Positions 6,407 through 24,942 of a stretch of DNA of 64,000 nucleotides are shown one piece after another. Both the position numbers and the translations under genes were made by a program. The stretch lies in assembly GCF_002554795.1 (NCBI RefSeq), contig NZ_PDEQ01000004.1, positions 248,001 through 312,000 on the forward strand, written 5' to 3'. The number at the start of each line of letters is the position of its first letter. Position 1 is the first letter of the stretch. Source of the stretch: Longibacter salinarum (GTDB taxonomy: Bacteria; Bacteroidota; Rhodothermia; Rhodothermales; Salinibacteraceae). The notes below the pieces were generated by a model. The model made no database searches and was not told the DNA's origin. It saw only the letters and a list, made by a program, of their open reading frames with translations.

Positions 6407-6823
6407 TCAACTAGCATCGTCGCTATCTCGATTCGGCAACGAGTCTTGAACAGCCCGTCGCTCAACGATCAGACGGGCGGTCGACTCGTTCGTCGCGATG
6501 GGCACATTGTGGACGTTACACGCCCGGAGAAGCGTCTGAATGTCCGGTTCGTGCGGGTGCTTGCCCAGCGGGTCGATGAAGAACACAACGGCGTAGACAT
6601 TTCCCTCGACGATGCGAGACGCAATCTGGACATCTCCGCCAAGTGGACCGGAGTGGTAGCGCACGACGTCGAGATCAAGTTCATCAATGAGCATCTGCCC
6701 GGTGGTTCCGGTGGCCACGAGCTGGAATTGACGAAGCAGGTCCGCGTGCTTGTGAGCAAATGAAATCAGATCAGCCTTTTTGCCGTCATGAGCAATCAAG
6801 GCGAGAACAGGAGCTTCGGGCAT
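6407..6823 (-). CDS. mgsA: Methylglyoxal synthase
   Basis: Converts dihydroxyacetone phosphate to methylglyoxal and phosphate, a bypass that relieves phosphate limitation in lower glycolysis. The 138-residue protein carries the family signatures LIAHDGKK (phosphate contact), TGTTG, GPLGGDVQIASRI with the catalytic Asp64, and PHEPD with His91 and Asp94, matching the Asp71, His98 and Asp101 set of E. coli MgsA, followed by PIATNESTA. It diverges from the ferredoxin gene across a 212-base gap. Confidence 0.95.
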   Translation of the reverse strand: MPEAPVLALIAHDGKKADLISFAHKHADLLRQFQLVATGTTGQMLIDELDLDVVRYHSGPLGGDVQIASRIVEGNVYAVVFFIDPLGKHPHEPDIQTLLRACNVHNVPIATNESTARLIVERRAVQDSLPNRDSDDAS

Positions 6824-7035
6824 GGATCGAGCCAGGTGGCGAGAAGCATTGTGAGTGTCAGCGTTCCCATTTACATCTTCGAACAGGAACGTAGCCGGCC
6901 TTTACTATGGGACGTTCGCAGTCAGCCCCGACCCGGCCAACCCGTAACGCGTATGTCTTTCTGGAACTGCGGAAAACATACGGGTTATCATCGTATCGAA
7001 TCAACTCCAGTCTGCTCTGTCCGTACCTCCTTCCT

Positions 7036-7380
7036 ATGCCGTACGTCGTCACCGAACCCTGCATTAACTGCAAGTACACAGATTGTGTCGAGGTATGCCC
7101 CGTAGATTGCTTCTATGAAGGGCCTAACTTTCTCACGATCCAGCCCGACGAGTGCATCGACTGCAACGCCTGCGTGCCCGTCTGCCCGGTCGAAGCCATC
7201 TATCCGGATGACGAACTCCCGGAGGAGTACCAGCACTATACGGAATGGAACGAGTATCTCGCCAATCAATGGCGCGAACTCGGGTACAACATCACGGAGA
7301 AGTCCGATCCGATGCCAGACGCCGAGGAGTGGGAAACGAAAGAGAAGTCGGAGGAAGACATTCTGACCTGGGACGTGTGA
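7036..7380 (+). CDS. fdxA: 7Fe (3Fe-4S/4Fe-4S) ferredoxin
   Basis: A soluble low-potential electron carrier. The 114-residue protein opens [24 protein letters not shown], the 3Fe-4S plus 4Fe-4S pattern typical of FdxA, followed by FYEGPNF and the second cluster motif [17 protein letters not shown]. The C-terminal half is acidic ([18 protein letters not shown]), as expected for a halophile or acidic ferredoxin. An in-frame upstream start at 6907 would add 43 residues of no family character, so 7036 is chosen. Partner enzymes are not in the window. A terminator follows at 7411. Confidence 0.93.
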
Positions 7381-10716: not shown

Positions 10717-11787
10717 TTAGTTGCTCCCAAGCTCGATGCTCGTGGCAAGACGCGAGCCGTCGCTGAGGACGATGAAGTCAACCTCGATGATGTCCGACGA
10801 CGTCAGAGCCTGAAGCGTAGCCGCATCCAGCGTCCCTTCAAACTCCGTGTCACCATCGATCGCGATACTCTGACCCAGAAGGCTGACCGACGTGTCGGTT
10901 GCACCCTCGACGTACCCTTCGAGACTGAAGGTGAACTCGTCCGAGCTCAACGCTTCAACTTCAGCGGCGCGGTAGGTACCGTCGTCTTCCTTCACAGCCT
11001 CTACGCTCGCGTAGTTGTACGAGGACAGGCCGTCGATGGCAGACACACCGTCAAAGTCGGTGCTGTCCGTCGTCGTAAAGGGAATTCCCTCGACGGTCAG
11101 CGTCGGGCCACTCGTATCGACGTTGTCGATGCGACCGGTGGCTTCGATTTCAGCCAACTCCAGGTCGGCATCCGTAAACTCGATGGCTTCAGCCTTGACA
11201 ACCGGCTTCAGGATATACCCGCCATTTCCGAGTTCAACAACAGACTGGCTGGCGTCGAAGTCGAGCGTGAGGTCGACGATATCGCCTTCCTCATCAATCT
11301 CAAACTCCGGAATCTGAATCTTGTAGCCGCTCTGCTGAGCACTCGGCGTCTTCAGGTTTTCGGTGCTGCCGTCGTTGAAGACGAGCGTATTATTATTCGT
11401 CAGCACGAGACGCATCTGCGAATAATCACCGGCCGGAATGGCGGCGTCCGTCACGAGCGTCGCCGTGGAGTCGGTGAGATCGAGAAGGTTGACAGTAACC
11501 GGCTGATCGGGTGCGAAGACAGGTACGATTGCATCATCGCCAGCCTCCACCTCATCGGACTCGCTGTCGCCCTCAAGGTCATCATCGTCGGCATCCTCGC
11601 GAACGAGGTTGATGCTCTCGATCGTGACGTTGACCTCGGCCACGCTATCGAGCGGGGCGTCGGTGAGACGGAGGTTCATCTTGCCCTGCACAGCGCCCGA
11701 ATCGGACGAATCGCAGGCGGTAAAAGTAACGAGGCCCAGGACGAGAACCAGTCCGAGGCTGAAAACAGTGCGCAACGTAGACTTCAT
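10717..11787 (-). CDS. DUF4382/DUF5666 domain lipoprotein
   Basis: A 356-residue lipoprotein (signal then FTACDSSD, Cys25). The N-terminal mature part (GKMNLRLTDAPLDSVAEVNVTI... and YSQMRLVLTNNNTLVFNDG) matches the DUF4382 pattern, a beta-sandwich common in Bacteroidota and halophile lipoproteins. The C-terminal half (IEATGRIDNVD, SLEGYVEGATD, DGDTEFEGTL, IIEVDFIVLSDGSRLATSIEL) looks like DUF5666-type OB-like modules. An acidic Asp/Glu stretch (DADDDDLEGDSESDEVEAGDD) is inserted in the first domain. No enzymatic function is known. It is monocistronic with its own terminator. Confidence 0.75.
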   Translation of the reverse strand: MKSTLRTVFSLGLVLVLGLVTFTACDSSDSGAVQGKMNLRLTDAPLDSVAEVNVTIESINLVREDADDDDLEGDSESDEVEAGDDAIVPVFAPDQPVTVNLLDLTDSTATLVTDAAIPAGDYSQMRLVLTNNNTLVFNDGSTENLKTPSAQQSGYKIQIPEFEIDEEGDIVDLTLDFDASQSVVELGNGGYILKPVVKAEAIEFTDADLELAEIEATGRIDNVDTSGPTLTVEGIPFTTTDSTDFDGVSAIDGLSSYNYASVEAVKEDDGTYRAAEVEALSSDEFTFSLEGYVEGATDTSVSLLGQSIAIDGDTEFEGTLDAATLQALTSSDIIEVDFIVLSDGSRLATSIELGSN

Positions 11788-12231
11788 AGGGGGATTCGGT
11801 CGCTATACAATGCGTCATCGAAACGAGAGCGCTGGCGCAAATCCGGCTGCGTTCGATGCAACCGTCACGTGCAGCGATCTCGGGCCGCTCTCCGGGGTTT
11901 CCGGCGAACGCGCACCTCATAGAAGAACGTTAGCGGAGGTGGTTACACGCTGCGCTATCGTTTTGGTAGACCGTAACATAACCACCGCGGAATGGCCTCA
12001 GACCCAACGACCTCGGAAAAGAACCCGCTTCAACACCTGTGAATAGCCGTTTTCCGTCCGTTCCCCTCCACCGCTGCACCCACCATTCACGAAGTATGAA
12101 TATAGTTTTTGATGCTGTGACCTCGCTCTCTGCCTCCGGAGGGTCCGGCACCCTTTCAACAAAAACGAACCGCCCTTCCCCCAAGCGAGGAACGGCGATT
12201 CGACCCACCTGGTGAGCGGCGACGTTGTTGA
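11788..12231. other. Intergenic region with an 8-bp inverted repeat
   Basis: No gene seen. GGTGGTTA at 11938-11945 and TAACCACC at 11979-11986 form an inverted repeat with a 33-base spacer, in the long leader of the DUF4382 gene. This could be a structured 5' UTR or an operator; the evidence is weak. Confidence 0.3.
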
Positions 12232-13773
12232 TCAATCCGTTGCGTCGCGATAAAATGTCTCGACGTTATCCGTGAACTGCCGTAGCGATGGCATGTGCAC
12301 ATACATCATGTGTCCGGACTCGTAGTAGCTCACGCTTACATTGTCACGATACTTCGCACCGAGCCCCATGTGGTCCAGTACGTAGTCGGTCGCGAAATAT
12401 GGCGTTGCTACATCGTAGTACCCGCTGGCGACATGGACGCGGAGCGCAGGGTTTTTGTGGATCGCCTGCCGCAATGGCTCAGCCACATCAAGGTACTGGT
12501 TCTCGAAGGTCTCATAGTTCCACGGCCATACCCGTCCGGTCAGAATCTCGTAGGGAAGGTCCGTTTCGAAACCCAGTTCACCCCGCACGTAGCTGTTCAG
12601 CGTGGCGGTGTACGGACCAAGGATCGCCACGTAGCTCGGGTCAAACTCCGGTCCGGCTCCGACGTCAAGACGATCCTGCGCCGTGAACCGGCTGTCCAGG
12701 CGTCCCACCGTCTGCCCCTCGTCACGTAGCAACTCTTTATAGAAGTGGCGATCCACGACGCGCAAGTTGGCGTCATCGATAAACTCGCGCGATAGGCCCG
12801 TGTACTGATGCAGCCGATCGATCACACGCTCCCGCTCGGCATCCGGTAACGCATCCCCCTGCATAAGTGCAACCGTGTAATCGGTCGTGGCCCACTGTTC
12901 GACCTCGTCTAGAAACGTTCGGAGGTCTCGCCCCTGCTGGTCAGCGGGAAGCGCGCCGTGGTAGTGAGCTGTGGCAGCGTAGGTCGGCAGGAAAAGCGGG
13001 TACACCAGGTCGTTTCCGCGATCGAATGCATTCGCCTGGTAGTTCAGGACAGCCGAGACAAGAACAATTCCATTGAGGTACATGCCGTGACGATCCTGTA
13101 GTGCCGACGCGAGGCCCGCTGCGCGAACCGTGCCGTAGCTCTCACCGGCGAGAAACTTCGGCGATGACCACCGGTCGTTTCGCGTGGTATACAGCCGAAT
13201 GAATCGCGACACCGACTCGATGTCTCCTTCGAAACCGTGAAAGCGGTCTTCGTCAACCGCTGACGTTGATCGGCTATATCCGGTCGTCACCGGATCGATG
13301 AACACGAGGTCCGTAAAGTCGAGCCAGGTCTGACCGTTGTCAACAAGTTCGTACGGCGGAGAGAGAACGTTTGTCGAATCGGAAACAACCGGCACGCGAC
13401 GAGGGCCGAGAGCGCCAAGATGTAGCCAGACAGAGGACGAACCGGGGCCGCCGTTGAAAGCAAACGTGATCGGTCGATCTTCCTGATCCGTGCCTGCCTT
13501 CCGATAGGCGACGTAGAACATTTTCGCCTGAACGGTACCATCTTCCGCACGAAGCGGCAGATAACCGGCGTCTGCCGTATACCTGATCGTTTCCCCGTCG
13601 ACCTCTACCGTGTGCTCGGTGGTTATAACCGTGTCAGGATATAACTCTGGCCCTCCGGTGGTATCAGGCGCCTGAGCCATCGAAAAGCCGACAGTGGTGC
13701 CATAGAGGCAGAACACGGTCAGAAACGAAAGATAGAGACGCAAACGCTCCAATCGTTCAGCGGTCACGGACAT
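12232..13773 (-). CDS. Secreted serine carboxypeptidase, peptidase family S10
   Basis: An exported exopeptidase releasing C-terminal residues. The 513-residue protein has a signal peptide (FLTVFCLYGTTVGFSMAQA) and the S10 signatures: substrate-binding FAFNGGPGSSSVWLHLG; nucleophile FLAGESYGT (Ser212); catalytic Asp in ASGYYDVATPY (Asp454); catalytic His in YYESGHMMY (His488). The start at 13773 places the signal peptide correctly; an upstream in-frame start at 13887 would add 38 residues. It lies 162 bases downstream of the four-gene sigma-factor operon on the same strand, so read-through is possible but not shown. Confidence 0.9.
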   Translation of the reverse strand: MSVTAERLERLRLYLSFLTVFCLYGTTVGFSMAQAPDTTGGPELYPDTVITTEHTVEVDGETIRYTADAGYLPLRAEDGTVQAKMFYVAYRKAGTDQEDRPITFAFNGGPGSSSVWLHLGALGPRRVPVVSDSTNVLSPPYELVDNGQTWLDFTDLVFIDPVTTGYSRSTSAVDEDRFHGFEGDIESVSRFIRLYTTRNDRWSSPKFLAGESYGTVRAAGLASALQDRHGMYLNGIVLVSAVLNYQANAFDRGNDLVYPLFLPTYAATAHYHGALPADQQGRDLRTFLDEVEQWATTDYTVALMQGDALPDAERERVIDRLHQYTGLSREFIDDANLRVVDRHFYKELLRDEGQTVGRLDSRFTAQDRLDVGAGPEFDPSYVAILGPYTATLNSYVRGELGFETDLPYEILTGRVWPWNYETFENQYLDVAEPLRQAIHKNPALRVHVASGYYDVATPYFATDYVLDHMGLGAKYRDNVSVSYYESGHMMYVHMPSLRQFTDNVETFYRDATD

Positions 13774-13935
13774 AGCGAGGAGAGAGAGGGCAAGTTGAAG
13801 CGAAGAGGGCCTAAACATAGGCGGCGCGACGTCGGAGAACAACACTCTCCAGCGCCGCGCCGCCATAGCTTTCACACGATGCATCAACGGATAACGCCCC
13901 GTTTCGGGTCGTCATCCACCTCCGCCCGGCATGAA

Positions 13936-14943
13936 TCATCCGGGTGGTCCGCCTCCGGGCGGGTTGGTTGGTGGCTTTCCGCCACCTGGCGGATCACCCG
14001 GTGGTTTTCCCGGAGGTATATTCGGGGGCTTTCCCGCGTCTGGTGGCTTTCCCTGGCCGGGTGGCGGCCCATTTCCTGCGCCTGCGCCATCTGCAGCGGC
14101 TGGCAAGTCTGCGACCCGTCCCTGGTACAATCCGCGGAGTACGTCGGTCGCCGGCACACCCTGGGCAATCGCCTGAGCCACTCCCTGCGTCAGTGCCGGC
14201 ATAGGCTGGCGTGTCTGAGCCTGAGCCCGCTGAAGAGCAGCCGGAAGCTGTCCGACCTCATCAGCAGAGTATCCGGCGGAAAGCGCCGAAGCAACAAGAT
14301 TGCGGGCAAGAGTGCGATCCTGACTGGCATCCGGCATCTCGGCCATTGCACGAACGGCTGCTGCAACCTCGCGTGTTGATGGGGCTGCAGCCTGGGGGCC
14401 GCGACGATCGGCAATGGTAGGGACTTCCGCGAGCAGTTTTTCAACATCGCCCATTTTTAATCCCTGTTGACGAGCATGTGCACTGCTTACGATCAGCTGG
14501 TCACGACCGGACGGGCTTGCGTCACGCAATCTGGACTGAACGTCCGACTGGCGCAGCCACGCATCGATCATCGGGCCTGTCTCTCGGATGTGTGAAGCCA
14601 ATCCACTGACGACAGAACGGACGCGCGACGCGGGCACGCGCTTGGCAAGCCCTTCGAGAGTCTTGTTGAGGATGGGGGAAGCAGGCAGGCCGGATTCCGC
14701 CAGTTCGACCGCCGGTGTAAGCAAGTCGACCACGGTCTGGGGGGATGCACCATTCAACTGTGCACGTTTGGCAACATTGCGGAGCAATTCACCATCCGCG
14801 CCGGCTGCCTCACCTCGTTCCACGACCGACGTCACGGGCGCAGGGAGCGTCTCCTGTGCCACAGCCGAAGACGAACCGGCCACGCAGAACACCGCGCCAC
14901 ACAGGACGGCCATCCATAATGTCACCGAGCGGGGAAGGGGCAT
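13936..14943 (-). CDS. Secreted protein with Pro/Gly/Lys-rich C-terminal tail
   Basis: A 335-residue protein with a signal peptide (VTLWMAVLCGAVFCVAGSSSAVAQ). Residues ~30-280 are helical and Ala/Gln-rich with repeat-like segments (VVDLLTPAVELAESG, EVAAAVRAMAEM, LVASALSAGYSADEVGQLPAALQ, GVAQAIAQGVPATDVLRGLYQG). The last ~50 residues are a low-complexity tail rich in GKPP and PPG. It is the fourth gene of the sigma-factor operon, 37 bases after the barrel gene. The start 14943 is chosen for the signal peptide. Function unknown; a wall- or surface-associated substrate of the system is inference. Confidence 0.7.
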   Translation of the reverse strand: MPLPRSVTLWMAVLCGAVFCVAGSSSAVAQETLPAPVTSVVERGEAAGADGELLRNVAKRAQLNGASPQTVVDLLTPAVELAESGLPASPILNKTLEGLAKRVPASRVRSVVSGLASHIRETGPMIDAWLRQSDVQSRLRDASPSGRDQLIVSSAHARQQGLKMGDVEKLLAEVPTIADRRGPQAAAPSTREVAAAVRAMAEMPDASQDRTLARNLVASALSAGYSADEVGQLPAALQRAQAQTRQPMPALTQGVAQAIAQGVPATDVLRGLYQGRVADLPAAADGAGAGNGPPPGQGKPPDAGKPPNIPPGKPPGDPPGGGKPPTNPPGGGPPG

Positions 14944-14980
14944 GAAGGGTAATGAGGGCGTGATGGGGGTCACCAATTCG

Positions 14981-16246
14981 CTATGGAATGACACAGACTC
15001 CATTCTCTCCACCAAATGCATCATTCGTCGTTGGCACACCGGACGGTAGGGTCATCCAAGAAGGAGACGAGTTGGAGTCGTCGGGGTTACTTCCGGTCTC
15101 TCGCACCTCCTTCGGGGAATGATGAATTCGGTACTCAAAGCGCCCGGTCGGTAGGGGCAGTGTCACGGTGTACATGTCACCCTGTGGCTGCGTCCGACTA
15201 AGACCGACACCTGGAAGCTCCCAGCCGTTGAAGTCCCCGGTGATGTAGGGTCGTCCGTCTCCCTCGTATCGGACCCGGAACCGAGCGCCCCCCTCCACCG
15301 ACAAACAGTAGAGTTCTGCCGTGTCCTTACGGCGATGGGACTCCGTTGCATCGTACAGTGTCGTGCGCCACCGGTATCGAAGACCGAGGGCGACGCGACG
15401 ATCACGCACGTCCGTGTTATTGACATCTCCTATCATTCCCTGGCCTGCAGCAAACAACTCTACGGACGGCGTCGCCTGCCAGTCTACGCCGATGTGAGCA
15501 CGACCAATGAGGTCTACTTGCTCTCTGGGTGTTGTCGTATTCAGTTCGGTAAACAGTCGCTCCGCTGTTCCACGAACGGTGGCGGTTACCGTCGGCGACA
15601 GGAGGAGCCGGACGCCAATAGATCCGCCCGTTCCGCCATACGACGCGGCTGACGTGCCTGCCCGTCCGTCACTCACATAGATACGAGCCGTACCGCGAAT
15701 GTTGTCTGTCAGCCAAGATTGCAGCGACAGCGTGCCGAGAGCACTCGTCTGCTTTTGCGCTGGGTCGAACGTGCGTACCATCCGCCGACTGAGCCCGCCG
15801 GCAAGGGTGATGGTCGTGTACTTCAGTGGGGCCCAACGGACGCTCGACATCAGCCACCCGGTATCTCGCGAGGCGTTTAGCTGGTAGCGTTGTATGCCAC
15901 CCTGAATGCCCACGCGCCAACGCGACGACAACAGCCGATACGCACCCATGCCTCCCTGAGCGAACTGCGGGTTGGGAGTCTCGGTGCGGCGGGGATACAG
16001 ACGAGTTCGGGCAAACGCTTGGACCTGCCACTGCGGCGTGTCCCAGGTAATCGCACCGATCGGCGTGATGGAAGCGAACCGTGGATCCGCGGTCGGATCC
16101 CACTCTCCCAGTAGTGGGTCGAGATAAGGATTCGACTGCGCACCCGCTTCGGCATCGGCACCGACCGTTGTATACAACACCTGGGCACGCGCGTCGAGGC
16201 AGGTGGACCACAGCAGGAGGCCCAGGCCAAGAAGCGCGTAGCGCAT
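14981..16246 (-). CDS. Outer-membrane barrel protein with C-terminal CBM48-type domain
   Basis: A 421-residue exported protein (signal RYALLGLGLLLWSTCLDARAQ). Residues ~25-310 have alternating amphipathic strands typical of a beta-barrel (WRVGIQGGIQRYQL, GIGVRLLLSPTVTATVRGTAERL-like runs, HIGVDWQATPSVELFAAGQG). Residues ~317-421 form an early-set/glycogen-binding-type module: RPYITGDFNGWELPGVGLS, MYTVTLPLPTGRFEYRI, and the terminal AFGGENGVCVIP. The first glycan-contact Trp (FNGW) is kept, while the region of the second is replaced by a Ser/Asn/Pro-rich insert. It starts 8 bases after the anti-sigma gene, so the two are co-transcribed. Confidence 0.7.
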   Translation of the reverse strand: MRYALLGLGLLLWSTCLDARAQVLYTTVGADAEAGAQSNPYLDPLLGEWDPTADPRFASITPIGAITWDTPQWQVQAFARTRLYPRRTETPNPQFAQGGMGAYRLLSSRWRVGIQGGIQRYQLNASRDTGWLMSSVRWAPLKYTTITLAGGLSRRMVRTFDPAQKQTSALGTLSLQSWLTDNIRGTARIYVSDGRAGTSAASYGGTGGSIGVRLLLSPTVTATVRGTAERLFTELNTTTPREQVDLIGRAHIGVDWQATPSVELFAAGQGMIGDVNNTDVRDRRVALGLRYRWRTTLYDATESHRRKDTAELYCLSVEGGARFRVRYEGDGRPYITGDFNGWELPGVGLSRTQPQGDMYTVTLPLPTGRFEYRIHHSPKEVRETGSNPDDSNSSPSWMTLPSGVPTTNDAFGGENGVCVIP

Positions 16247-16254
16247 CTACGAAT

Positions 16255-17073
16255 TTAGAGTTTGAGTACGGCATTCTGAGCCCCAAATCCGTCGTCTCGT
16301 TGAATCGGTGCGAGCGGGTCGGTCACCCACGTCTCACCGTTAATAACAAACTGGTATTCGTGCTCACCACGTCCGACGGGTACGAGGCCGGTCCAGATGG
16401 TCTGGCCCCGTACCGTACGGGATGAAAGCGGGATAGGCTCCCACTTGCTGAAATCCCCGGCCACAGCCACGGATTCGGCATCGGCAGCACTGTAGACGAA
16501 GCGCATCCAGACGACCGACCCGTCATCGGATACCGCGGTGGCCTGCGGACCATTGGGTGCGGACGTGGATGGTCCACTTGCTATCGCCGTGGAGGGCTCA
16601 CCCTCCGGCACGACGGAACCGTTCCCATCGCCCACCTGCCAGACAAGAACGCCGAGTGCCGCGGCCACAAGCAGTGCTACGACCGGTCGCACCGTCAGCG
16701 TAAGCGGTACAGTGAGCGGGCGAAGCCAATCTTGCAGTCGGGCGACCACACCGGAATCTGCGACGTCATCGGCCGCGGGAACGGTCGCGTTGGCGGTTGC
16801 TTCCGACATCTCGATCGCCGCCATGACATTGTCTGCAAACCCAGCGGGTGGGGACGTGGATGAGGAGCGAGCTGCTTCTCCAGACCACTGAAGTTCAAAC
16901 CGTAACACGCTTCGTGCTTCTTCGTCTTCCGCGATTGCGTGGAGAGCATCCGTTTCTTCATCCGTCGAGAGATCCCCATCAATCAGCCGCTGCACGAGGT
17001 TGTCGGCCGGAGACCGAAACTCGTGCCCGTTCGAGTAGGCGGTGTTGTCGTGTTCTGAAGCTTGATCGTTCAT
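16255..17073 (-). CDS. Transmembrane anti-sigma factor with periplasmic glycogen-binding-type domain
   Basis: A 272-residue protein directly after the ECF sigma gene. Residues 1-115 are an acidic cytoplasmic domain (VQRLIDGDLSTDEETDALHAI, EEARSVLRFELQW, FADNVMAAI) like an anti-sigma domain, but without the zinc-binding His/Cys motif. One transmembrane helix spans ~129-147 (RPVVALLVAAALGVLVWQV). After a Ser/Pro/Gly linker, residues ~187-272 form a CBM48/AMPK-beta-type domain: VAVAGDFSKWEPIPL, EHEYQFVINGETWVTDPLAP, GFGAQNAVL. Trp211 and Trp249 fall where the two glycan-binding tryptophans of AMPK beta lie. I infer that it holds the sigma factor at the membrane and senses a periplasmic ligand. 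Confidence 0.8.
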   Translation of the reverse strand: MNDQASEHDNTAYSNGHEFRSPADNLVQRLIDGDLSTDEETDALHAIAEDEEARSVLRFELQWSGEAARSSSTSPPAGFADNVMAAIEMSEATANATVPAADDVADSGVVARLQDWLRPLTVPLTLTVRPVVALLVAAALGVLVWQVGDGNGSVVPEGEPSTAIASGPSTSAPNGPQATAVSDDGSVVWMRFVYSAADAESVAVAGDFSKWEPIPLSSRTVRGQTIWTGLVPVGRGEHEYQFVINGETWVTDPLAPIQRDDGFGAQNAVLKL

Positions 17074-17154
17074 GTCAGATAAACCGTCACGGTGAAAGTG
17101 ACATCCGCAGGCCGATCGCGGCGTCCGCGATGACCCGTCTACGTTTAGATACTC

Positions 17155-17736
17155 TTATTCCGGGCGGATAGCGTCCAGATCTTCGTTCTCGAGAACCGTC
17201 CGCAGCTTCTTACGGGCTCGATGAACGCGAACTTTCAGGGCGCTCACGGAAACGTCGAGACGCTTCGACATCGCTTTGTACGTCATGCCATCTCGATACT
17301 TCATCAGGAAAGGGACGGAGTACGTCGGAGTTAGCGTGTCGAGCGCCCTCCACAGCGCCTCTCCCTTCTCCTCCCGTTCAAGTTTGGAATCTTGCCGCTC
17401 GAGCGGGTTCGGTGTGCTGTCCTGATCCGCCGCTTCCGTTCGGCTGAACGGAAACGTCTGCCGTCGGATGTTTTTTGCGTAATCCCGACAACGGTTCAGA
17501 GCAATGCCATATAGCCATGATGCAAATCGGTCCGGGTTTCGCAGGTCATCTATTCGGTTGTAGGCCCGCATGAACACTTCCTGCGCCAAGTCGGCTGCGT
17601 CGTCTTCGTCGCTGGCGTACCGATACGTCAACTCATACACCATCCCCTCATACCGTTCAAGCAGTGGTCGGAATGCGGACGAATCCCCGTCTCGCACCCT
17701 CTGTACGTATGTCCCGTCAGAAACGTCATCGGGCAT
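17155..17736 (-). CDS. ECF-type RNA polymerase sigma factor
   Basis: A 193-residue group 4 sigma factor. Region 2 is clear (VQRVRDGDSSAFRPLLERYEG, DAADLAQEVFMRAYNRIDDLR, FASWLYGIALNRCRDY). Region 4 follows a Ser/Asp-rich linker (SVPFLMKYRDGMTYKAMSKRLD, VSALKVRVHRARKKLR). It heads a four-gene minus-strand operon with its probable anti-sigma factor 81 bases downstream. Autoregulation is usual in such operons but I could not identify its promoter here. Note that it is a different protein from the sigma factor at 31829. Confidence 0.9.
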   Translation of the reverse strand: MPDDVSDGTYVQRVRDGDSSAFRPLLERYEGMVYELTYRYASDEDDAADLAQEVFMRAYNRIDDLRNPDRFASWLYGIALNRCRDYAKNIRRQTFPFSRTEAADQDSTPNPLERQDSKLEREEKGEALWRALDTLTPTYSVPFLMKYRDGMTYKAMSKRLDVSVSALKVRVHRARKKLRTVLENEDLDAIRPE

Positions 17737-18056
17737 GATGGATCTATTTCGATGGATCGGCTCCCCCGAACGGCGTGGGGAAAGGTCAGGCGCAGAGTCG
17801 AAAGAGACTGGTATAGAAAATATAGCGCTCTCTCAGTAAAATACGTTCAGCAATACCTGCAAGTGGACGAGCCGTAGAAAAATGGGTTACACGCACGAAG
17901 GCACACGCACATCGATGTGAACCCGGGAGGGACGGATGACATCTCGAAACGTGTCATGGTCGCGCTGGGCACAACACGTAACCCAACACGCAAAAAAGAC
18001 GCCCGAACGCAATCCTGCGTCCGAGCGCCGACAAAAAGCAGAATGGATGCAACGCC
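17737..18056. other. Gap between sigma-factor operon and metK
   Basis: Holds the promoter region of the sigma operon near 17740-17860 (AT-rich ATAGAAAATATAGCG on the plus strand) and the metK terminator at 17992-18030. No gene seen. Confidence 0.4.
17992..18030 (-). terminator. Terminator of metK
   Basis: On the minus strand a 13-bp stem GGCGCTCGGACGC / GCGTTCGGGCGTC (with G-U pairs, 6-base loop) is followed by TTTTTTG. Confidence 0.8.
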
Positions 18057-19214
18057 TCACGCGAGTTGTTTCGCGGCGTGTTTCAGAGCGTCCACATAGT
18101 TCGTCTTCTCCCACGGGAAGGTATCACGACCGAAGTGTCCGTACGCGGCCGTCTTACGATACATTGGACGCATAAGGTCGAGTCGATCGATGATGGCCGT
18201 CGGCGAGAGCTCGAAGTGATCACGCACCAGGTTGGTGAGCTGGTCATCGGTGAGCTTACCGGTCCCGTTCGTATTTACATCGATGGAGACGGGCTCGGCA
18301 ACGCCGATCGCGTATGCAACCTGGACGAGGGCTTCGTCGCAGAGGTCGGCGGCCACGAGATTTTTCGCTACGTGCCGCGCGGCATACGTCGCGCTGCGGT
18401 CGACCTTCGACGGATCCTTGCCGCTGAACGCGCCACCGCCGTGGGCGCCTTTTCCACCGTAGGTGTCGACGATGATTTTGCGTCCGGTCAGACCCGTATC
18501 GCCGTGCGGACCGCCAATGACGAACCGTCCGGTGGGGTTGACGTGCAAAATCACATCGTCATCCAGCATGTCATCCGCAATGACACGAGGAAGCAAGTGC
18601 TCGCGGATGTCGCGTTTGATCTCGGACTGCGAGACGCCTTCGTCATGCTGCGTCGAGACGACGATCGTGTGAACGCGGCGAGGCGTACGACGATCGTCAT
18701 CGTATTCCACTGTAACCTGGCTCTTCGAATCCGGCCGCAGGTACGGCATCAGGTCCGTCTCCTTGCGAATGTGAGCCAGTTCCCTCACGAGTCGATGCGC
18801 ATACATGATCGCCATCGGCATCAACACGTCGGTCTCGCGGTTTGCGTACCCGAACATGAGTCCCTGATCCCCGGCGCCCTGCTCGGACGTCCCGTCCACA
18901 CCCTGGCTGATGTCCGGGCTCTGCTCGTGAATGCTACTCAGCACGCCACAGGAATCCGCATCGAACCGGAGGCGCGGATCGGTATAGCCGATGTCGCGGA
19001 TCACTTCGCGTGCGATCTCGCGGACGTCGGCATACGCATCCGTCGACACCTCTCCGCTGAGAACGACCAGTCCGGTCGTAACCATCGTCTCGACGGCTAC
19101 GCGGCTTTTCGGGTCGTCGGAGAGAAGGGCGTCGAGGATAGCATCCGAAATCTGGTCGGCAACCTTGTCGGGGTGTCCCTCCGACACGGATTCACTTGTA
19201 AAGAGGTAAGCCAT
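18057..19214 (-). CDS. metK: S-adenosylmethionine synthetase
   Basis: Makes S-adenosylmethionine from methionine and ATP. The 385-residue protein has [20 protein letters not shown] at its start (ATP site, GHPDK), [12 protein letters not shown] (substrate/K+ region) and [17 protein letters not shown] with the signature Lys/Asp residues. The frame remains open for 102 residues upstream of ATG 19214, but that extension has no similarity; [10 protein letters not shown] is the conserved start. The open upstream stretch is a long leader and may carry regulation (see 19389-19480). Confidence 0.97.
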
Positions 19215-19746
19215 GAAACGGGCAGGCAGCTCGTGGGGTGGAAACGATCCCGCCGACCCCAGACCGGAGTGGCAGGAAAAAGAAATTGTTGCGAACGGAT
19301 AAAAACCGTACGGCCCATTAGTATACGAATCAGCGACCCTCATTCCCATGACCGTGATCGGAAGATTTGCGAAAAGCCCGTTTAGTATCCCGGCTTTCCC
19401 GTCAGATGGGCGAAAGGGACCCTCGCGCTCGGGGCAATGAGGAGATGCGGACCCCATATCGAATAGCTCCTGAAGCCGGGGATGTCTTTTTGCGCGACCA
19501 TTTTGCAACATATGGTTCACAAAGACGTGGCGGCATGCGAAGTCCCCGTCAAACGAGAAGCAGGAATTGATTCTCGCAACTCCGGAACGTACGTTTCAAC
19601 GTTTGAATGCCCGGGGTGGCCTATTTATCCGCCGGCGTGATCCCAGAACTACGCTCATTTTGAGCCTGCGATCTTGCGTTTGCGGCCACCACCCCACCCC
19701 TTTTTCGCACCAGGACACCCATTAGCCAGCAAGAGGCTGCCACGTT
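19215..19746. other. Long divergent leader region between metK and acpP
   Basis: 532 bases with no gene. The metK side keeps an open frame with no protein similarity and contains a possible long-range stem (19389-19396 with 19473-19480). I looked for the SAM-I core and did not find it. The acpP promoter must lie toward 19700. Confidence 0.45.
19389..19480 (-). promoter_or_regulatory. Candidate structured metK leader
   Basis: On the minus strand CCCCGGCTT (near 19480) can pair with AAGCCGGG (19396-19389), closing a ~76-base domain that contains AGGAG/CTCCT and other GC-rich pairing options. Placement ~175 bases before metK would suit a SAM-responsive leader, but the sequence does not match the SAM-I, SAM-II or SAM-IV signatures I know. 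It could be chance in GC-rich DNA. Confidence 0.2.
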
Positions 19747-24312: not shown

Positions 24313-24942
24313 ATGCGTACCTCGTTCCTCCACCGTTCGCTGTCCATCCTTGCCTTGCTGCTGGGCTTGACCCTCGCGCTGTCCTCCTCGCCGGCCCACG
24401 CCCAGGATGCCGCCGAACAGGAGATTCGCTCGATGCTAGAGTCGCGCGATCAACAGATCAAGTCCATTCTGGATGGCGACACATCGGCCTTTTCCGACCA
24501 GCAGCGGGAAGAACTAAAAACGCTAATCAACGGCGTCATCGACTTTCGAGCCATGGGTCAGGTCGCCCTCGGCCCGTTCTGGAGCGACCTCTCCGATGAT
24601 CAGAAGAACGAGTTTGTCGATGTCTTCCGTGACATCGTGCGCGCTCAGTCGTTGGCTGACCTGGAGGTATACAATTCGAAGGTCACCTACGAAAAGATTA
24701 ACGTTGAAGAAGACAGCGCGTACGTCCAAACCCTGACAGAGTACGAAGGCACCGAAACGCCCGTTGTCTACGATCTGCAAAAGCAGAATGACACGTGGGT
24801 GGCGCAGGACATCATCCTCGACGGCGTCAGCACCGCCGAGAGCTACGCGCGCTCATTCCAGACCGTCGTGCGCAAGCGAGGATTCGATGCGCTTATGACG
24901 AGCCTGAAGAAGAAACGAGACAAGGTCACGTCGGCTCGATAA
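24313..24942 (+). CDS. MlaC-like phospholipid-binding ABC transporter protein
   Basis: A 209-residue periplasmic protein (signal SILALLLGLTLALSSSPAHAQ). The mature part fits the MlaC/Tgt2 family: TLINGVIDFRAMGQVALGPFWSDLSDDQ, FVDVFRDIVRAQSLADLEVY, VVYDLQKQNDTWVAQDIILDGVS and YARSFQTVVRKRGFDALMTSLKKK. MlaC ferries phospholipids between outer and inner membranes to keep outer-leaflet asymmetry. The ATPase, permease and MlaD partners are not adjacent. Start 24313 is chosen because it gives the signal peptide. Confidence 0.88.
   Translation: MRTSFLHRSLSILALLLGLTLALSSSPAHAQDAAEQEIRSMLESRDQQIKSILDGDTSAFSDQQREELKTLINGVIDFRAMGQVALGPFWSDLSDDQKNEFVDVFRDIVRAQSLADLEVYNSKVTYEKINVEEDSAYVQTLTEYEGTETPVVYDLQKQNDTWVAQDIILDGVSTAESYARSFQTVVRKRGFDALMTSLKKKRDKVTSAR

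Follow-up and report, generated by a model that had tools for sequence, protein, structure and literature searches.

Ligands are known for few anti-sigma factors, and those pathways from the outer membrane to a sigma factor that are well understood use TonB receptors. In the PupR/PupB system, homologous domains, the STN domain of PupR and the NTSD of PupB, are carried by the anti-sigma factor and by its outer-membrane partner (PMC7186176). In the SigI/RsgI systems of Clostridium thermocellum, the anti-sigma factor bears an extracytoplasmic sensory module, which is carbohydrate-binding in several cases, and the operon is autoregulated (PMC6056542). RsiV illustrates that an anti-sigma ectodomain can serve as a ligand receptor (PMC5014341). 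Here we describe a four-gene cassette of Longibacter salinarum, located in a 64,000-nucleotide stretch (positions 248,001 to 312,000 of contig NZ_PDEQ01000004.1), all of which we call the window. The cassette encodes an extracytoplasmic function (ECF) sigma factor, an anti-sigma factor, an outer-membrane barrel protein and a secreted protein, and both the anti-sigma factor and the barrel protein end in an early-set (E-set) domain of the AMPK-beta/CBM48, or glycogen-binding, type. From sequence comparisons, we consider that the cassette probably constitutes a trans-envelope sigma switch, the E-sets of the two membranes reading either a periplasmic ligand or each other.

The original prediction had placed four tightly packed genes on the minus strand, and the open reading frames of the window reproduce their positions, their order (sigma, anti-sigma, barrel, secreted protein) and intergenic gaps of 81, 8 and 37 bases. 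For the last gene, an ATG start at 14943 is likelier than the longer, mechanical GTG start at 15039. The parts of the cassette are as follows.

17155..17736, minus strand: ECF sigma factor, 193 residues (Pfam Sigma70_r2 3e-16 and Sigma70_r4_2 2e-15; NCBIfam TIGR02937 108 bits).
16255..17073, minus strand: anti-sigma factor, 272 residues, with an RsiW-like class I domain lacking the zinc motif, a single transmembrane segment, a linker and a predicted periplasmic E-set (Pfam, profiles).
16258..16521, minus strand: E-set of the anti-sigma factor, AMPK-beta/CBM48-type, predicted periplasmic, residues 185-272, with W211, W249, F263 and N267 (AMPK1_CBM 33.4 bits).
14981..16246, minus strand: outer-membrane protein, 421 residues, with a signal peptide, a 14-stranded barrel and a C-terminal E-set (AlphaFold2 model).
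14984..15310, minus strand: E-set of the barrel protein, about residues 313-421, with W342, W397 and N415 (profile against AMPK beta PDB chains, 2.6e-5; alignment).
13936..14943, minus strand: secreted helical protein, 335 residues, with a signal peptide, a helical solenoid (residues 35-273) and a disordered Gly/Pro tail (AlphaFold2).

Residues 192-268 of the anti-sigma factor score above the curated Pfam cut-offs of two related families, AMPK1_CBM (33.4 bits, cut-off 26.8) and CBM_48 (24.9 bits, cut-off 22.4). The E-set of the window alone finds AMPK beta-1 structures (1.6e-6), and a profile of 77 anti-sigma homologs, run against PDB sequences, finds AMPK-beta and GH13 (CBM48 enzyme) structures with its C-terminal part. 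The domain in the barrel protein is more divergent: alone, its residues 326-373 remain below threshold for AMPK1_CBM (14.1 bits, E 0.055), and a 14-sequence profile of the C terminus retrieves the structures 4yef, 1z0m and 1z0n of the AMPK beta glycogen-binding domain at E about 3e-5 (2.6e-5). Proteins occupying the same slot in Krumholzibacteriia and Gemmatimonadota exceed the Pfam cut-off unaided, with 35.6 and 38.7 bits. The domain assignment made in the original prediction, which was to fall if the domains proved to have an unrelated fold, is therefore borne out for both proteins by Pfam and PDB sequence profiles. Its reading of the tryptophans calls for one correction: both were rightly seen in the anti-sigma factor, where W211 and W249 are present in 80/80 sequences, and the barrel copy, said to keep only the first, in fact keeps W342 and W397, which are invariant in 14/14 close relatives, the second being masked by an insertion peculiar to the barrel protein of the window. 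We take W211, W249 and N267 to be the equivalents of W100, W133 and N150 of AMPK beta, which are glycan-contact positions. Among 153 E-sets, the anti-sigma domains hold W/W/N at these positions in 80/80/80 of 80 cases, the barrel domains in 36/33/31 of 36 and the lipoprotein domains in 37/37/36 of 37; the E-sets may bind alpha-glucan. In the window and in a close relative (L032), C314 and C418 flank the E-set of the barrel protein and could form a periplasmic disulfide; the pair is not present in the Balneolaceae copies of the alignment.

A sample of the phylum (296 genomes) contained 13 genomes besides L. salinarum with a full-length anti-sigma homolog, and in 13/13 the sigma gene, the anti-sigma gene, the gene for a barrel with E-set and the secreted-protein gene follow one another in fixed order, the anti-sigma and barrel genes mostly overlapping by 4 bases. 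The joint conservation of the barrel gene with the sigma and anti-sigma genes, on which the original prediction had staked its interpretation, extends well beyond close relatives. The search for the four-gene order that it had called for was carried to 80 named loci, found through the anti-sigma E-set, so that this part is given and the neighboring genes are not. All four genes stand in order in 69/80 (33 in barrel form and 36 in lipoprotein form, the latter being nearly all from Nitrospira and hence not independent). Complete sets occur in Rhodothermota/Balneolota, Nitrospirota, Acidobacteriota, Gemmatimonadota, Krumholzibacteriota, Eisenbacteria and Myxococcota, i.e., in at least seven phyla. 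As for the remaining loci, L130 and L111 possess all parts in another order, seven end at contig edges, L083 is cut by its contig and has no visible second E-set, and L084 is a genuine exception. L084 encodes a membrane-anchored E-set protein (6746-7267) with no anti-sigma domain or sigma gene, and the helical secreted protein still follows it. The anti-sigma factor had no match in a plasmid collection.

The second E-set has two kinds of carrier. It is the C terminus of the barrel in Rhodothermota, Gemmatimonadota, Krumholzibacteriota, Eisenbacteria and Myxococcota, and a small lipoprotein, its lipobox cysteine invariant, in Nitrospira and Vicinamibacterales (Acidobacteria); L122 and L110 have in addition a separate barrel gene of the Phenol_MetA_deg family directly upstream of the sigma gene. 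Either carrier would put the second E-set at the outer membrane. We count both the fixed gene order and these two modes of anchoring in the same slot in support of the sigma switch. In a tree built on 88 columns, whose inner branching is poorly resolved, one branch (95/94, 96% of bootstrap trees) separates the 80 anti-sigma E-sets from the 73 outer-membrane E-sets, and because of this split we conclude that the pair is old and has been inherited together. Outside the cassette, small stand-alone E-set proteins of about 100-140 residues (L045, L046, L048 and others) are widespread in the phylum.

The sigma protein consists of sigma-70 regions 2 and 4 only, over the Pfam and NCBIfam TIGR02937 cut-offs, as expected of an ECF sigma factor, and its counterparts in the 13 genomes are 37-63% identical. 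The N terminus of the anti-sigma factor matches RsiW (5wuq_C, E 4.9e-6) when the 77-homolog profile is compared with the PDB; with this N-terminal domain and a gene adjoining the sigma gene, the protein belongs to the class I anti-sigma (ASDI) group. Since it has a single hydrophobic segment, peaking at residues 126-144, and not one cysteine in its whole length, the anti-sigma factor is a single-pass protein without the Hx3Cx2C zinc motif, as initially described. Zinc or redox sensing by the anti-sigma domain was weighed and set aside.

An ECF-type sequence, GTAAC-N16-CGTC, precedes the sigma gene in 26/29 Rhodothermota/Balneolota loci, including that of the window at 17890(-); such a conserved upstream promoter would be expected of an autoregulated ECF operon. 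The spacing of 16 is sharp: 26 loci share it, no other spacing accounts for more than 1, and the shuffle mean is 0.0145. In most Balneolaceae the motif is found again after the secreted-protein gene, before a DUF4382 lipoprotein gene (18/24 exact), and L141 has it once before another DUF4382-like lipoprotein gene elsewhere in the genome; in Nitrospira, a variant, TTTAC-N16-CGTC, precedes a DUF5666 lipoprotein gene in 17/18 loci. DUF4382 or DUF5666 genes adjoin the cassette in many relatives. The window contains the gene of the sole DUF4382 protein of the L. salinarum genome, and a matrix built without the window sequence ranked its upstream site, together with two sites in and before the cassette, high among all window positions.

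17866..17890, minus strand: putative operon promoter, GTAAC-N16-CGTC (26/29 sigma upstream regions; rank 1 in the window).
15066..15090, minus strand: possible promoter inside the operon, ahead of the secreted-protein gene, with an exact GTAAC-N16-CGTC (rank 2 in the window).
11922..11946, minus strand: near-match promoter before the DUF4382 lipoprotein gene, GTAACC...TTCTTC, one mismatch in -10 (rank 6 in the window).
10717..11787, minus strand: lipoprotein with one DUF4382 and two DUF5666 domains, putative regulon member (Pfam; neighbors in relatives).

Sites comparable to that at 15066..15090 precede the secreted-protein gene in L060, L062 and L069. A high-scoring promoter-like site at 24923(-) was discarded, as it is antisense within another gene. 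We infer that the GTAAC-N16-CGTC promoters are driven by the sigma factor of the cassette, whose regulon likely includes the DUF4382/DUF5666 lipoprotein of the same window, a gene that the original prediction had overlooked. The ECF-type promoter before the sigma gene and the DUF4382/DUF5666 lipoprotein genes is new here, and the shared promoter motif and the E-set tree support the view that the genes of the cassette form one unit.

Several observations concern the neighborhoods of these genes. A serine carboxypeptidase S10 gene (12232-13887, minus strand) lies between the cassette and the DUF4382 lipoprotein gene of the window; the relatives that we inspected showed no such gene at this place. 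metK is upstream of the cassette in the window (18057-19520, minus strand) and in the Salinivenus relative L052 (4288-5451), where the DUF4382 gene is placed between metK and the sigma gene. Salinivenus relatives, and not the window, have a second ECF sigma gene a few kilobases downstream of the cassette (L052, 10578-11360; L053; L054; L055; L032, 11403-11957). In Nitrospira, a small lipoprotein without Pfam match stands behind a second promoter, adjoining the DUF5666 lipoprotein or apart from it (L122, 2240-2671; L157; L158; L160). Directly before the E-set lipoprotein gene on a Thermodesulfovibrionales contig is a gene judged by eye to be GH57-like (L130, 3722-5899).

The AlphaFold2 model of the barrel protein (mean predicted local distance difference test [pLDDT] score of 85) has 14 strands between residues 23 and 299, followed by the E-set. 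An even number of strands leaves both ends of a barrel in the periplasm, and because the count here is 14, the E-set of the barrel protein is predicted to be periplasmic. In fold it comes closest to CymA, a cyclodextrin channel (Z 22.2; 261 residues superposed at 3.2 A with 8% identity), followed by OmpG (Z 20.5). This likeness is a lead only, given that 14-stranded barrels resemble one another and that a shared fold does not establish a shared substrate; the structural search listed matches for the barrel part only, and the fold of its E-set rests on sequence profiles. The secreted protein is modeled with confidence (mean pLDDT 87, most of the core above 94) as a helical solenoid that ends in a disordered tail. 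It has no Pfam match over cut-off, and the matches listed by its fold search were weak (E 9.8e-3; Z no higher than 7.5) and for the most part designed helical repeats, with no clear natural relative among them. Its gene, whose constancy had escaped the original prediction, is kept in 13/13 close and in most distant loci and is as conserved as the other genes of the cassette.

Our current working hypothesis is that the sigma factor would be kept at the inner membrane by the RsiW-like, zinc-less class I anti-sigma factor with its periplasmic E-set, and that the second E-set would be tethered to the outer membrane, as the periplasmic C terminus of the 14-stranded barrel or as a lipoprotein in Nitrospira and Acidobacteria. 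We guess that the trigger is a periplasmic ligand, most likely an oligosaccharide, possibly entering via the barrel, or else a changed state of the outer-membrane protein, and that it alters the contact or the occupancy of the two E-sets. Inactivation of the anti-sigma factor might follow, probably through regulated proteolysis like that of RsiW, and the released sigma factor would transcribe its own operon and the envelope DUF4382/DUF5666 lipoprotein gene from GTAAC-N16-CGTC promoters. The helical secreted protein would be a constant part, perhaps a periplasmic co-regulator. In its most specific form, to which we give slightly less than even credence, the proposal is that of an undescribed, multi-phylum class of switch, in which a duplicated glycogen-binding-type domain on both membranes reads an alpha-glucan-like (or other) periplasmic oligosaccharide and controls DUF4382/DUF5666 lipoproteins, including those of the Nitrospira nitrifiers.

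Several observations weigh against a glycan-reading switch with this regulon. The position equivalent to K126 of AMPK beta is Met or Gln in the anti-sigma E-sets (mostly Lys or Arg in the barrel E-sets), neither cassette nor regulon was seen to contain a recurring gene for glycan degradation, and E-sets of the AMPK-beta/CBM48 family can also act as protein-binding surfaces. The DUF4382 promoter site of the window has a mismatch in its -10. Lastly, in the genome search for a shared promoter suggested in the original prediction, exact counts of the pattern across the L. salinarum genome were not above the reversed control, which is why we claim no wider regulon.

Some of these points would fit E-sets that are protein-protein modules, touching each other or the helical protein and reporting the assembly or integrity of the outer-membrane protein, as in envelope-stress systems of the RseA/RseB type, with no sugar involved. 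The pairing of homologous domains on both membranes, the precedent of homologous-domain contact between PupR and PupB (PMC7186176), the lack of a recurring glycan enzyme and the envelope lipoproteins among the targets all speak for this explanation, which we regard as possible but rather unlikely: the two E-set groups retain the glycan-contact Trp, Trp and Asn from phylum to phylum, beyond the need of a pure interface, and the closest structural match of the barrel is a cyclodextrin channel. We are equally doubtful that a periplasmic glycan is sensed solely by the E-set of the anti-sigma factor, much as RsgI would do with its CBMs, the barrel or lipoprotein being a co-regulated uptake or capture protein outside the signaling. 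Such an arrangement would be in keeping with a single operon, with the same kind of domain and conserved residues in both proteins and with a 14-stranded barrel most like CymA and OmpG; however, the second E-set of Nitrospira stands by itself as a lipoprotein, not joined to a barrel, and the pairing is still kept, and old, paired descent is easier to reconcile with a partner than with an uptake protein that can change. A coincidence, in which a common early-set fold was taken up on two occasions by functionally unconnected proteins, is very improbable and was dropped. E-set/CBM48 domains are indeed common, and many relatives have small stand-alone E-set proteins, but the pairing recurs in 69/80 loci, in at least seven phyla and on two types of carrier, and the two groups split once and were inherited together.

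The sigma switch that we favor would represent a compact alternative to TonB pathways, recurring in at least seven phyla. The ligand class of its sensor domain is directly testable, the promoter consensus provides a ready reporter, and the DUF4382 and DUF5666 lipoprotein domains, which have no assigned function, gain a regulatory context.

Our searches of the open-access literature found no anti-sigma factor with a CBM48, AMPK, isoamylase or glycogen-binding domain and no such pairing; a corresponding group in the 2021 ECF re-classification is possible. Like FecI/FecR/FecA (PupI/PupR/PupB), the cassette combines an ECF sigma factor, a single-pass anti-sigma factor and an outer-membrane barrel that shares a homologous domain with the anti-sigma factor. 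Unlike FecA, the barrel is small, with 14 strands, and neither a plug nor a TonB box nor an STN domain was seen in it; Pfam matched neither plug nor STN in the barrel protein and no FecR domain in the anti-sigma factor. A TonB-type FecA system was considered and rejected. Moreover, the shared domain is here a C-terminal AMPK/CBM48-type E-set, its carrier can be a lipoprotein, and a helical secreted protein is added. An extracytoplasmic sensory module on the anti-sigma factor and an autoregulated operon recall SigI/RsgI, but SigI does not belong to the ECF sigma factors, and that system has no outer-membrane partner with the same module; neither a SigI-type sigma factor nor an RsgI N-terminal domain was matched in the cassette by Pfam or NCBIfam. 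The modules of RsgI are of other CBM, PA14 or GH types, in a host without an outer membrane. The cytosolic anti-sigma domain is RsiW-like, as in SigW/RsiW; in contrast to SigW/RsiW and SigV/RsiV, the anti-sigma factor lacks the zinc motif, has an unrelated ectodomain and is accompanied by an outer-membrane partner. The E-sets share with the glycogen-binding domain of AMPK beta and CBM48 their fold family and the W100, W133 and N150 positions, and differ from AMPK beta by the substitution at K126 in the anti-sigma copy and by a predicted periplasmic location on signaling proteins. Together, these comparisons place the cassette, which lacks the defining features of both the PupR/PupB and RsgI families, as a variant outside the two.

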